From positions 62,001 to 126,000 of the forward strand of contig NZ_JAVHUY010000017.1 of NCBI RefSeq assembly GCF_031085175.1: a DNA stretch of 64,000 nucleotides, written 5' to 3'. The stretch comes from Phytohabitans maris (GTDB lineage Bacteria > Actinomycetota > Actinomycetes > Mycobacteriales > Micromonosporaceae). This document shows positions 6,305 to 18,758 of the stretch, piece by piece. The notes under the pieces were generated by a model, which searched no databases, was not told where the DNA came from, and was given only the letters and a program-made list of their open reading frames with translations. How positions within the stretch are numbered: the stretch's first letter is position 1; each line of letters opens with the position of its first letter. A program made the position numbers and the translations under genes.

Positions 6305-6338
6305 GAAAGGCCGCCGGAGTCCGCTCCGGCGGCCTTTC
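6305..6338 (+). terminator. Strong intrinsic terminator after sseC
   Basis: Perfect 15-bp inverted repeat: GAAAGGCCGCCGGAG (6305-6319), loop TCCG, then the exact complement (6324-6338) ending in CCTTTC. It lies 13 nt after the sseC stop and closes the sulfur operon. The symmetric A/T flanks could let it work in both directions. Confidence 0.85.
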
Positions 6339-9737: not shown

Positions 9738-10796
9738 TCACTCTAGGTCGATCGCGGCGACCGATTCGCCGATCCGCAGGACCGCGTCGTCGGGCACGTT
9801 TCGCTTCAACACGGCGAGGGCGATCATGCCGAGCTCGAAGTGGCGCAGCGCGGTGCCGACGAAGCCGACCGCGCGCCCCTCCTCGTTGGTCACGGCCGTG
9901 CCCGGCGCCGGCGGCTGGTCGGTGGCCACGCCATCCAGATGCAGGAGTACGAGCCGGCGCGGCGGCCGCCCCAGGTTGTGCACCCGGGCGACGGTCTCCT
10001 GCCCCCGGTAGCAGCCCTTGTCGAGGTGGACCGCCGGCGCGAGCAGGTCGATCTCGGCCGGGATCGTGCGGTGGTCGGTCTCCAGGCCGAGCCGCGGCAC
10101 CCGGGCGGCGACGCGCATCGCCTCGTACGCCCACAGGCCGGCGAGGGGCACGCCGAGCCGCTCGACCACATCGCCGACGGAGTCGCGCGGTACCAGCAGG
10201 TCGATGCCGAGGCGGCCGCGGCGGGCGAACCCGCCCTCGGGCAGCTCACGAACGTCGTACACCGTGGTGGGTGTGGCCGGCACGGAGCCGGCGCTGAACT
10301 TCGGGCCCGGCACCGCGCGGACCTCGGGCTCCTTGAGGTCGGGGACGACCTCGGCGGCGCGCGGCCCGACCAGCGTCAGCACCGCGAGCTCGGCGGTGGC
10401 GTCGCGCGGCTCGACCCGGGTGAGGAAGCGCATCCGGTCCAGGAACGTGAGCAGCTCGCCGGCCGCGCCCGGCTCGGTGTCGAGCCAGGTGGTGGTGCCG
10501 TCCTCGGCGACCTGGGCGTGGTGCTCGACGTGGCCGTGCGGGGAGAGGACGAGCAGCTCGGTGCCCTGTCCGGCGCGGAGGTCGGCGAGGTGCTGGGTGG
10601 TGATGCTGTGCAGCCAGCTGGCCCGCTCCGGCCCGGGTACGGCGACGACGCCCCGGTGCGAGCGGTCGACCAGCCCGACGTCGGTGGCGAGCGTACGCTG
10701 CTCGCGCATCGGGTCGCCGTAGTGCGCCGCCACGCCGGCGTCCCGCGACTCCGGCTCCAGCGCCTCGACGGCGACCGCCCCGGCAGTGTCGATCAT
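9738..10796 (-). CDS. ygfZ: Folate-binding protein YgfZ
   Basis: 352-aa member of the YgfZ/GcvT family, a tetrahydrofolate-dependent factor for iron-sulfur cluster enzyme assembly or repair. The signature KGCYRGQE (about residue 265) with its Cys is intact. An aminomethyltransferase-like N-terminal region (VDRSHRGVVAVPGPERASWLHS) precedes it. The length is typical of actinobacterial forms. The ATG at 10796 overlaps the stop of the Fur-family gene (ATGA), so it is co-translated with that regulator; a longer open frame upstream is only read-through of the regulator and is rejected. The BKACE gene follows after 4 nt. Confidence 0.9.
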   Translation of the reverse strand: MIDTAGAVAVEALEPESRDAGVAAHYGDPMREQRTLATDVGLVDRSHRGVVAVPGPERASWLHSITTQHLADLRAGQGTELLVLSPHGHVEHHAQVAEDGTTTWLDTEPGAAGELLTFLDRMRFLTRVEPRDATAELAVLTLVGPRAAEVVPDLKEPEVRAVPGPKFSAGSVPATPTTVYDVRELPEGGFARRGRLGIDLLVPRDSVGDVVERLGVPLAGLWAYEAMRVAARVPRLGLETDHRTIPAEIDLLAPAVHLDKGCYRGQETVARVHNLGRPPRRLVLLHLDGVATDQPPAPGTAVTNEEGRAVGFVGTALRHFELGMIALAVLKRNVPDDAVLRIGESVAAIDLE

Positions 10797-11215
10797 TTCG
10801 TCTCCCCACAATCCCCGCAGGTGCCAAATAGCGCCACGTGACCGATGTCCAGCCGGAACCCGCGCTCCTTGGCCAGCTCGCCGGCCAGCGGCGCGAGCAC
10901 CTCGGGCTCGATCTCGCTCACCGCACCGCAGTCCCGGCACACGAGGTGGGCGTGCTGGTCCTCGCCCACCGGGTGGTACGTCGGCGACCCGTGCGACAGG
11001 TGCGTATGGGTAACCAACCCGAGGTCCTCGAGTAGTTCCAAGGTGCGGTAGATCGTGGTGATGTTCACGCCGGCGGCCACCTCGCGCACGGCGGTGTGCA
11101 GCTGCTCGGGGGTGGCATGGCCCAGCTCGTGGACGGCCTCCAACACCAGTTGTCGCTGGGCGGTCAGCCGCAGTCCACGGGCCCGCAGGATCTCCGGGAG
11201 GGACGTTTCCGACAC
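10793..11215 (-). CDS. nur: Fur-family metalloregulator, Nur-like
   Basis: 140-aa Fur-family repressor. Winged helix at about 1-80 (RLTAQRQLVLEAV, NITTIYRTLELLEDLGLV) and a metal-binding dimerisation domain with HAHLVCRDCG and FGTCGDC, two CxxC pairs that form a structural zinc site. The order and wording are closest to Streptomyces Nur (nickel-responsive, SCO4180), recalled from memory; plain Fur or Zur is the alternative. The GTG at 11215 lies exactly 6 nt after TATTAT and inside the arm of an inverted repeat, so the transcript is leaderless and probably autoregulated. It heads a four-gene leftward operon (with ygfZ, BKACE and asparaginase). Confidence 0.75.
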   Translation of the reverse strand: MSETSLPEILRARGLRLTAQRQLVLEAVHELGHATPEQLHTAVREVAAGVNITTIYRTLELLEDLGLVTHTHLSHGSPTYHPVGEDQHAHLVCRDCGAVSEIEPEVLAPLAGELAKERGFRLDIGHVALFGTCGDCGETK

Positions 11216-11235
11216 CGCACGATAATAGTGCGGTG
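11213..11235. promoter_or_regulatory. Symmetric divergent leaderless promoter/operator
   Basis: Perfect 8-bp arms CACCGCAC (11213-11220) and GTGCGGTG (11228-11235) around a 7-nt AT-rich core. Read rightward the core gives GATAAT ending 6 nt before the GTG at 11233; read leftward it gives TATTAT ending 6 nt before the GTG at 11215. One core thus serves as the -10 box in both directions, and both start codons lie within the arms. The palindrome is the natural candidate operator for the Fur-family protein encoded to the left. Confidence 0.7.
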
Positions 11236-12000
11236 CAGGCTTCGGTCGTCGCCGTGCTCGGCCGGGGGGTCGTCCCCTCCGGCTCGCCGGTCATGCGTGC
11301 GGATGATCCAGGAGTCCTCGGCGAAGGGCTCTTCGAGACGATGCTCGTTCGCGGCGGGCGCCCCTGGTTGCTCGACGAGCACCTGGCGCGCCTCACCGCC
11401 TCCGCGCCGGCGCTCGGGCTGGCGGTGCCCACGAGCCTGGCCGAGTTCGTGCTCTCGGCCTGCGCCGAGTGGCCGGCCGAGGTCGAGGGCGCGCTGCGGC
11501 TGGTCTGTACGCCGATGACGGCGTTCTGCACGATCAGCCCGGTGCCGCCCCGGACGCTCTCGCTCCGGGTGCGGACCCTGCCGGCGTCGTCCGGGCTGCC
11601 GTTCAAGTCCCTCTCGTACGGCCCGAGCATCATCGCGCGCCGCCAGGCCGCCGCGAGCGGGGTGGACGACGCGCTGTGGATCTCCCCCGACGGGTACGCG
11701 CTGGAGGGGCCGACGGCCAGCCTGGTCTGGCTGGACCGCGACGTCCTCTGCACCGTGCCGCCCTCGGCCGGGGTGCTGCCTGGCGTGACCGCGGCCTGGC
11801 TGCTGGCTCAGGCGCCATCGCTGGGCTGGCGGGCCGAGCAGCGCGTGATCAGCCTCGCCGACCTGCACGCGATGTCCGGCGTCTGGCTGGCGTCGTCGGT
11901 GCGCGGGCTGGCCGAGATCCGGGTGCTGGACGGGATCGAGATGCTCCCGTCGCCGCACACCGAGCTGCTGCGCTCGCTGGTCAGCCACCCACCCGGATGA
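11233..12000 (+). CDS. pabC: Aminodeoxychorismate lyase-like PLP enzyme (class IV aminotransferase)
   Basis: 255-aa fold-type IV PLP enzyme. Likely 4-amino-4-deoxychorismate lyase (p-aminobenzoate, folate pathway), with branched-chain or D-amino acid aminotransferase as alternatives. Seen: GLFETMLVRGGRPWLLDEHLARL (about 31-53), catalytic Lys in PFKSLSYG (about 120), the EG-x-x-S PLP contact (ALEGPTASLVWL, about 157) and LPGVTAAWLL. The GTG at 11233 is leaderless from the shared divergent promoter. The folate theme fits the YgfZ gene on the other side of the promoter. It converges with and overlaps nitrobindin by 20 nt. Confidence 0.78.
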   Translation: MQASVVAVLGRGVVPSGSPVMRADDPGVLGEGLFETMLVRGGRPWLLDEHLARLTASAPALGLAVPTSLAEFVLSACAEWPAEVEGALRLVCTPMTAFCTISPVPPRTLSLRVRTLPASSGLPFKSLSYGPSIIARRQAAASGVDDALWISPDGYALEGPTASLVWLDRDVLCTVPPSAGVLPGVTAAWLLAQAPSLGWRAEQRVISLADLHAMSGVWLASSVRGLAEIRVLDGIEMLPSPHTELLRSLVSHPPG

Positions 12001-12571
12001 GCCGGGCGGACAGGTGCGGGGAGAGGCCGTGGCCGACGGCGGCCATGTCCTGGGCGTACAGCAGCGCGCCCTCGACGATGCCGTAGAGCCGGTGGCCGGC
12101 GGTGACCTCCTTGGCCGTGGAGGTGCGCAGCACCGCGTCGGTCGCCATCTCGAGCTGGGTGCCGTTGACCCGGCCCAGGTAGAGCTCCATGATCCCGGTG
12201 GGGTTGGTGATCAGCGCCTCGACCTCGTCGGTCGCGCGGCCGTCTTCGAGCACCGGCCGCAGCCAGCCGACCTCGCGCATCGCCGGGCGCACCGGCTTGC
12301 TCTGCTCGTCGAGGATCCAGGCCCGCGCCGCGTAGTGCAGGAACGGCCGCCCGTCGTGGCTGATCCGGATCTCCTGCGCGTAGTCGAAGTCTTCGATCGT
12401 CGGGAAGCCGCCCTTGCCGCGCCCGCGCCACTCGCCGACGTACGGCAGGAGGGCCAGCAGCGCGGGATGCAGATCGGGCCCGGTGCGCAGGTCGTGGGTG
12501 TCCTCGAACGGGTACGGGTCGACCGGTGGCGCGTTGAGCCAGGGCGGGGGTCCGAGCGGGTTGTCAGTCAC
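11981..12571 (-). CDS. Nitrobindin-family heme protein (FABP-like, THAP4 type)
   Basis: 196-aa ten-stranded beta-barrel of the nitrobindin family, a ferric-heme protein linked to peroxynitrite or NO chemistry. The family signature GEWRGRGKGGFPTIEDF (GxWxGxGxG) is at about residue 47, and the probable heme-ligand His lies near the C-terminal LYGIVEGALLYAQDM segment. GTG at 12571 overlaps the stop of a tiny upstream membrane-protein gene (GTGA), so translation is coupled. It overlaps the convergent pabC-like gene by 20 nt at the 3' end. Cytoplasmic; the physiological role is inferred from family only. Confidence 0.87.
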   Translation of the reverse strand: MTDNPLGPPPWLNAPPVDPYPFEDTHDLRTGPDLHPALLALLPYVGEWRGRGKGGFPTIEDFDYAQEIRISHDGRPFLHYAARAWILDEQSKPVRPAMREVGWLRPVLEDGRATDEVEALITNPTGIMELYLGRVNGTQLEMATDAVLRTSTAKEVTAGHRLYGIVEGALLYAQDMAAVGHGLSPHLSARLIRVGG

Positions 12572-12672
12572 CAGCGTCCTCTTGAGATGCGCACGGCCAG
12601 GTAGACGAGGCCACCGGCGAGCAGCCCCAAGCCCGCGACCAGCAGGCTGACGAACCCGATCTCGGTAACCAT
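12568..12672 (-). CDS. Small single-pass membrane protein (34 aa)
   Basis: 34-codon gene from the ATG at 12672 to a TGA that overlaps the nitrobindin GTG by 4 nt. The product starts MVTEIGFVSLLVAGLGLLAG, then VYLAVR, and ends ISRGRW: one transmembrane helix (about 5-27) with a basic C-terminal tail that should stay in the cytoplasm. On the minus strand TAAGAT lies 9 nt before the ATG, giving a near-leaderless start. The coupling and clean membrane-helix pattern make this a real gene rather than chance. Function is unknown; it may help express, or anchor, the heme protein encoded next to it (inference). Confidence 0.7.
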   Translation of the reverse strand: MVTEIGFVSLLVAGLGLLAGGLVYLAVRISRGRW

Positions 12673-12714
12673 GACTGGGCCATCTTATGACCAGCACTGC
12701 CTATGCTGATCGGC

Positions 12715-13077: not shown

Positions 13078-13119
13078 ACGACTCCGCGCCCCGGTGAGTT
13101 AGCCCACAGTTAGCAGTTT

Positions 13120-18161: not shown

Positions 18162-18603
18162 AGCGTCGGGTTGGGATGTGCGGCACGGATGGGCGCGGCA
18201 GCTCAAGACTCGTCTGCGGGATCGCGGGCGCTCTCCCACCGCCTTGTCCTCCGTCGCAGGGCTGGCCCCTCAGGCGCAGCGGCCGGGTCTCTCGTCGCAG
18301 CGGCCGGGTCCTTCCCAGGCTCTGGGGGTCCGAGAGCGCCTCGGGTCCTTGATCGAGGAGTAGCTGAGCCGTCCGTGGCGAATACCTGCCCCTCGGGGGG
18401 CGGCTCTTCGCCACGGACGCGCCGCGATCCGCGCTCCTACGCGTCGATCAAGGAAACGGCCTACGGCGCGGTTTCGGGCGGTCCCGGGCGGGAACGCCAA
18501 GATCGATCTCAAACTCGCAGTCGGGGTGATGGGCGGTGATCGAAGCTCCCCCCCCGAGGGGGGAGCGCCTTGGGGGGGGGGGGGAGCACCCCCCGGGGGT
18601 TCC

Positions 18604-18659
18604 GGTGATCGAAGCTCCCTCCAAGTCGTTAGAACGACTTGGGGGGAGCTTCGATCACC
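18604..18659. terminator. 27-bp near-perfect hairpin, probable bidirectional terminator
   Basis: Arms 18604-18630 and 18633-18659 are complementary at 26 of 27 positions with a 2-nt AG centre. It lies 100 nt past the lacI-type stop (minus strand) and between convergent genes, so a terminator is plausible. There is no U-tract, and the outer part of the left arm is duplicated at about 18533-18550. Confidence 0.5.
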
Positions 18660-18758
18660 GCCGTGGGGAGGTGCAGCGAGCTACCACGATCGCGGGCCTG
18701 AGCCCGCGCGAGCCGGGTTCTGCCCAGGCCGGACCCCCAGCGCGGGCGACGCAGCGGC

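Follow-up and report, generated by a model that had tools for sequence, protein, structure and literature searches.

The closest described counterparts of the locus analysed here are the bidirectional promoters of bacteria and the leaderless genes of actinobacteria, among them those of Actinoplanes, a genus of the same family as Phytohabitans. In bacterial bidirectional promoters, the opposite starts are reported to lie most often 18 bp apart, separations of 10 and 23 bp being also common, and positions -7 and -11 of the two directions are described as coinciding reciprocally in a symmetric -10 element (PMC10268837, PMC12825309). A T at -18, with the initiating A opposite, is described as most frequent in such promoters and not as required (PMC10268837). 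In actinobacteria, a TANNNT located some 12 bp upstream of the start codon is reported to mark leaderless genes (PMC3160421). In the case of Actinoplanes, 14.03% of the coding sequences were described as leaderless, and 98% of the sequences examined contained TAnnnT (PMC7682106). For Nur of S. coelicolor, the structure 3eyy is available (PMC7055735), and the proposed Nur box is tTGCaa-N5-ttGCAA (PMC3919588).

In the window, the whole stretch of 64,000 nucleotides of Phytohabitans maris that was analysed, two genes diverge from the site at 11213-11235. The left one (10793-11215, minus strand) encodes a Fur-family regulator of 140 aa, which matched Pfam FUR (PF01475) at 6.3e-23. Its best solved relative was 3eyy at 5.6e-43, and the next best structure scored 1.5e-24. 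In an ungapped alignment, His 33, 70, 72, 88, 90 and 126 are common to both proteins, whereas residue 86 is Asp where S. coelicolor Nur has His. These matches uphold the assignment of the gene as a Nur-like Fur-family regulator made in an earlier note on this DNA, with nickel binding and repression predicted, and we call it nur. It is directly followed by a ygfZ-like gene (9738-10796, minus strand), the ATG of which overlaps the TGA of nur (ATGA). This gene matched TIGR03317 at 5.6e-28, above the cut-off, and Pfam GCV_T; both searches used 9738-10793, and the start at 10796 comes from the sequence. In S. coelicolor and some Frankia, nur and ygfZ are likewise reported as neighbours (PMC4531530). 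The right gene (11233-12000, plus strand), predicted to be leaderless, encodes a class IV aminotransferase of 255 aa (Pfam Aminotran_4, 1.1e-40). Its best NCBIfam models were those of aminodeoxychorismate lyase, all below their cut-offs, which counts against the reading favoured below; 'pabC-like' is therefore the safe name. This gene shares its last 20 bp (11981-12000) with the end of a convergent nitrobindin-like gene (11981-12697, minus strand).

The site at 11213-11235 reads CACCGCAC-GATAATA-GTGCGGTG. The left arm (11213-11220) includes the GTG start of nur (11215-11213 on the minus strand), the right arm (11228-11235) includes that of the pabC-like gene (11233-11235 on the plus strand), and the arms pair perfectly at 8/8 positions. 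The core between them (11221-11227) reads GATAATA on one strand and TATTATC on the other. It contains a candidate -10 hexamer for each direction: GATAAT (11221-11226), followed by 6 nt and the GTG at 11233, and, on the minus strand, TATTAT (11227-11222), followed by 6 nt and the GTG at 11215. This leaves 17 nt (11216-11232) as the spacer between the genes. The coordinates, the perfect 8-bp arms, the core, the 6-nt distances and the length of the spacer had been given in the earlier note, and all of them were correct when checked on the sequence. As the GTG starts are 18 bp apart, the two directions share base pairs 11222 (A) and 11226 (T), each of which is -11 of one direction and -7 of the other. 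When the starts are taken as GTG 11215 and GTG 11233, the -7T and -11A of both directions thus coincide at 18 bp, the geometry reported in PMC10268837. On the nur side, TATTAT fits TANNNT at -12 to -7. On the pabC side, GATAAT stands at the right position and lacks T-12, which counts against the promoter reading. Two further features weigh in the same direction: a -35 element was not evident by eye for either orientation, and each strand has C at -18 in place of T, because both starts are GTG. No Shine-Dalgarno-like stretch was seen by eye in the 17-nt spacer, which speaks for leaderless genes. Taken together, the 18-bp rule of bidirectional promoters and the TANNNT rule of leaderless genes make each GTG the probable +1 of its own gene.

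The conservation of the nur box was examined in upstream regions from 150 loci (the window and L011-L159), in which some genomes were present twice. The aligned start was not NTG in 25 of these, which were dropped, and 125 were usable. TANNNT was found at -12 to -7 of the nur start in 113/125 and out of register in the remaining 12. Loci of the same genome from two collections were collapsed by identical sequence only, which left 66 distinct 23-mers. In this set, T-12, A-11 and T-7 are invariant because the filter selects them. Strong conservation was also observed at unselected positions, namely C at -17 (57/66), G at -16 (58/66), A at -14 (59/66), C at -13 (57/66) and T at -10 (58/66). The register in 113/125 regions shows that the fixed distance between the -10 core and the nur start is not due to chance. 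The box was kept in relatives with and without pabC. In two congeners (G005 and G001), a nitrobindin-like gene lies next upstream of nur, and pabC was not found there within 1.5 kb (2.5 kb in L042). Both keep CGCACTATTATC before the nur start, which indicates that the -10 box and its upstream flank belong to nur.

The distance between the starts of nur and a divergent pabC was determined for 126 usable loci, with starts chosen by script. It was 30-79 bp in 77 loci, at least 80 bp in 35 and below 30 bp in 14 (12 genomes). The 18-bp distance was found in four of the six genomes of the genus (the window, G002, G003 and G004), in which the pabC product begins with VQAS(V/L)VAVLGRG; elsewhere, most spacers are longer. 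The loci L033, L153, L027 and L037 have script-chosen distances of 19-25 bp (19 bp in L033). In three other genera (L132, L134 and L145), the script had chosen an ATG inside the box region, and we moved the pabC start by eye to a GTG three codons in. After this adjustment, the two boxes overlap and the starts are 22-23 bp apart, near the 23-bp spacing reported in PMC10268837 and PMC12825309. At 27 bp (L158), two adjacent boxes are seen, with 6 nt between each and its own start (by eye), and in many of the spacers of at least 27 bp the pabC side has a TA-rich box of its own, as judged by eye among the 35 of the 126 loci with spacers below 60 bp. Two boxes at 27 bp and overlapping ones at 22-23 bp indicate that shorter spacers merge the boxes.

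On these data, 11213-11235 is likely to be a bidirectional promoter in which a single symmetric -10 element serves two leaderless mRNAs. The placement of one symmetric core for two divergent, leaderless-looking genes, the central claim of the earlier note, is supported by the sequence, its geometry and the register of the nur box. We infer the start points, the sigma factor, the activity in both directions, the leaderless translation and the order of events as follows. RNA polymerase with the housekeeping sigma factor would bind the site in either orientation. Initiation at the G of GTG 11215 would give a leaderless nur-ygfZ mRNA, and initiation at the G of GTG 11233 a leaderless pabC-like mRNA. 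Owing to the 18-bp separation, the same two base pairs would serve as -11A one way and -7T the other way. The nur promoter is probably the older one; the pabC start of Phytohabitans would have come to lie at the mirror distance and to use the same box. The earlier note had also stated that RNA polymerase can occupy only one direction at a time. This is right in principle, but competition should not be assumed, as the basal activity of five E. coli bidirectional promoters was reported to be too low for the directions to compete (PMC12825309).

The same note had read the arms as a palindromic operator. We counted inverted repeats without mismatch whose arms measured 8 bp or more and whose loops spanned 3-12 nt. 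The window had 33 of them, and five sequences simulated with a first-order Markov model had 26, 30, 31, 31 and 37, which makes a palindrome of these dimensions unremarkable. Two larger repeats were noticed in the window: a 28-bp inverted repeat at 18603-18660 (96% complementary, 2-nt loop) and a perfect 15-bp one at 6305-6338 (4-nt loop), possibly a terminator. The mirrored GTG codons fix 3/8 arm pairs. For the other five, the chance of matching is about 0.0025 at this composition; such a match would be rare at a single spot chosen beforehand, but this one was picked because it looked symmetric. In the 66 distinct nur upstream sequences, the complementarity of all eight arm pairs was close to the expectation for independent columns (observed versus expected, for example, 0.30 vs 0.30, 0.50 vs 0.50 and 0.15 vs 0.15, with the largest gap at 0.73 vs 0.64). 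All eight pairs were found in the window only, seven in G002 and G003, six in G005 (where pabC is missing) and G008, and five in P. flavus. The counterpart of the right arm is GGGCGGTG in two congeners and AGGCAGTG in P. flavus. Paired changes were not seen in the relatives, and the arms differ even between members of the genus. The comparison of the spacer in related genomes, which the earlier note had proposed as a check, thus showed that the palindrome is not preserved in close relatives, and the arms do not stay paired in homologous loci as those of a dyad operator would. Selection on the arms as arms was not apparent in these sequences. They probably consist of the two mirrored GTG codons, the own flank of the nur promoter and chance. 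A palindrome at a divergent leaderless pair should not be taken for an operator, because mirrored starts and a symmetric -10 element create part of the dyad.

A genome search with both arms around any 7-nt core gave one mismatch-free occurrence in the 9.87-Mb assembly, at 11213-11235 itself. With up to 3 mismatches, 209 sites were found versus 171 in the reversed control. The two 1-mismatch sites both lie within long reading frames, and a regulon sharing the same dyad was rejected on these grounds.

The possibility that only nur starts here has to be weighed against the shared promoter. The pabC-like gene would then be transcribed from elsewhere or start further inside, and the mirror GTG would be a coincidence. 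The missing T-12 on the pabC side agrees with this, as does the retention of the box at nur loci where pabC is missing, and the match to PF01063 begins at residue 32 of the pabC-like protein, so that this model allows a later start. On the other hand, four genomes share the pabC GTG, the distance of 18 bp and the N-terminus, many homologues from other genera start close to the equivalent residue (among the 35/126 loci with spacers below 60 bp), and no in-frame ATG, GTG or TTG precedes the pabC-like start before the preceding stop. We regard this possibility as unlikely. Quite unlikely, in our judgement, is that the dyad, or the conserved block CG(A/C)AC-TAT(G/T)ATC upstream of nur, serves a different regulator or forms an extended -10 motif specific to nur. 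The conservation at -17, -16, -14 and -13 and the presence of the block in both congeners without pabC there are in its favour. So is the search with CGMACTATKATCGG in five genomes: exact matches were confined to nur, in three genomes, and the other two had a 1-mismatch match at nur, with 11 further 1-mismatch sites elsewhere in the five. However, a motif with an exact match at a single locus in each genome does not define a regulon, and none based on the conserved nur block was seen in the five genomes searched. The block is also asymmetric, with pairs -15/-3 and -14/-4 fitting in 14-15% of the sequences, and its conservation may partly reflect shared ancestry.

The remaining explanation is that the palindrome is the operator of the adjacent Nur-like repressor, so that nur, ygfZ and pabC are repressed together when nickel is plentiful. 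The regulator gene adjoins the palindrome, and a comparable arrangement is reported for E. coli acrA/acrR, where the repressor AcrR acts on a bidirectional promoter in both orientations (PMC12825309). The search with the Nur box points the other way. No match with up to 3 mismatches was found at 11213-11235, and the only two such matches in the window lie at 13111 and 35697. In the genome, perfect Nur boxes were absent and two had 1 mismatch. One of these (L201, 1501-1517) precedes a nikA-like reading frame by about 70 bp; this frame matched TIGR02294 at 7.7e-85, below the family cut-off. Beside the other (L202), no metal gene was recognised by eye among the frames. As boxes with up to 2 mismatches numbered 21 in the genome versus 32 in the reversed control, only the nikA-like context lends the first box weight. 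With neither a Nur box nor conserved arms, and with no second perfect copy of the dyad in the genome, a Nur operator at the palindrome was rejected, and we consider the explanation very improbable. The metal switch of pabC and the ygfZ operon suggested in the earlier note is unsupported, since the spacer has no Nur box within 3 mismatches; Nur control through an unusual site there is a slight possibility, and nickel control of pabC is a conjecture.

Returning to the proposed shared bidirectional promoter, we searched for the same layout elsewhere with the strict pattern CAYN5TANNNTAN5RTG, which places starts 18 bp apart over TANNNTA and which the site in the window does not fit. It gave 11 sites in the six genomes of the genus versus 9 for the reversed control, which counts against the favoured reading. 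At several sites (G000, G001, G002 and G005), the same pair was found, encoding a protein of 50-55 aa and one with a weak match to the YiiX family; it was also present in another genus (L171). An NTP transferase gene and an epoxide-hydrolase-like gene diverge over an 18-bp site in G000, G001 and G003, the epoxide-hydrolase-like frame of G003 departing after a dozen residues. For these two pairs, protein families were searched for the G000 copies only. Glutamine-synthetase-like and amidohydrolase-like genes of another genus keep the layout in 4/4 genomes read (L189, L190, L192 and L193; families searched for L189 only). Among 150 genomes of the family, the layout occurred at 18 bp in 98, at 16 bp in 46 and at 20 bp in 73, counts in which sites shared by descent are counted anew in each genome. 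The reversed control was as high as or above the forward count in many of the 150 genomes (tables read down, not summed). For both reasons, recurrence rests on the conserved pairs and not on the counts. Of the 41 sites read, 20 were flanked on each side by a frame of 50 aa or more, with doubts about some (L162, L197-L199); the remaining 21 were not counted as pairs. The 18-bp layout thus appears to recur at other conserved divergent gene pairs, with pattern counts not clearly above the reversed control.

Two other arrangements were noted among these sites. Response-regulator-like and long sensor-kinase-like frames (named by eye) diverge from one 18-bp site in G002 (L166, 1501-1523). At nine loci (L175, L176, L178, L179 and L181-L185), LysR-type genes are accompanied by a TANNNTA element opposite a frame of eight codons that ends in MH (IMH in eight), perhaps an operator or a tiny peptide.

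We tentatively propose, at somewhat less than even chances, that Micromonosporaceae have a recurrent arrangement in which the start codons of two protein genes are the two +1 sites and flank a single symmetric -10 element at a distance of exactly 18 bp from each other. It would arise repeatedly by spacer loss between divergent leaderless genes, and pabC/nur would represent the step from two boxes to one. As relatives have longer two-box spacers beside the one-box state, the origin of a bidirectional promoter could be traced base by base. A literature search found no title on the combination of leaderless genes and bidirectional promoters among the matches listed, of which one mentions both, once each; this leaves its absence in print unproven.

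The nur/pabC site shares the 18-bp opposite starts and the -7/-11 coincidence with the bidirectional promoters described by Warman, Grainger and colleagues. It differs from them in that the starts are deduced from GTG codons and both messages would be leaderless; in addition, those promoters often have -18T, which neither side has here. As in E. coli acrA/acrR, a repressor gene stands on one side. In comparison with the reported TANNNT leaderless genes of actinobacteria, both nur and pabC fit in position and the nur side fits the motif, whereas here two genes use one box on opposite strands and the pabC side reads GATAAT. The S. coelicolor Nur system has a Nur box, in contrast to the nur/pabC spacer of Phytohabitans. 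With one -10 box, no leaders and 17 nt between the genes, two promoters could hardly be arranged more tightly. Changes to the box would therefore be expected to affect both mRNAs, and there would be no 5′ untranslated region to regulate. The promoter type is already known, and nur/pabC appears to be a neat further example of it.
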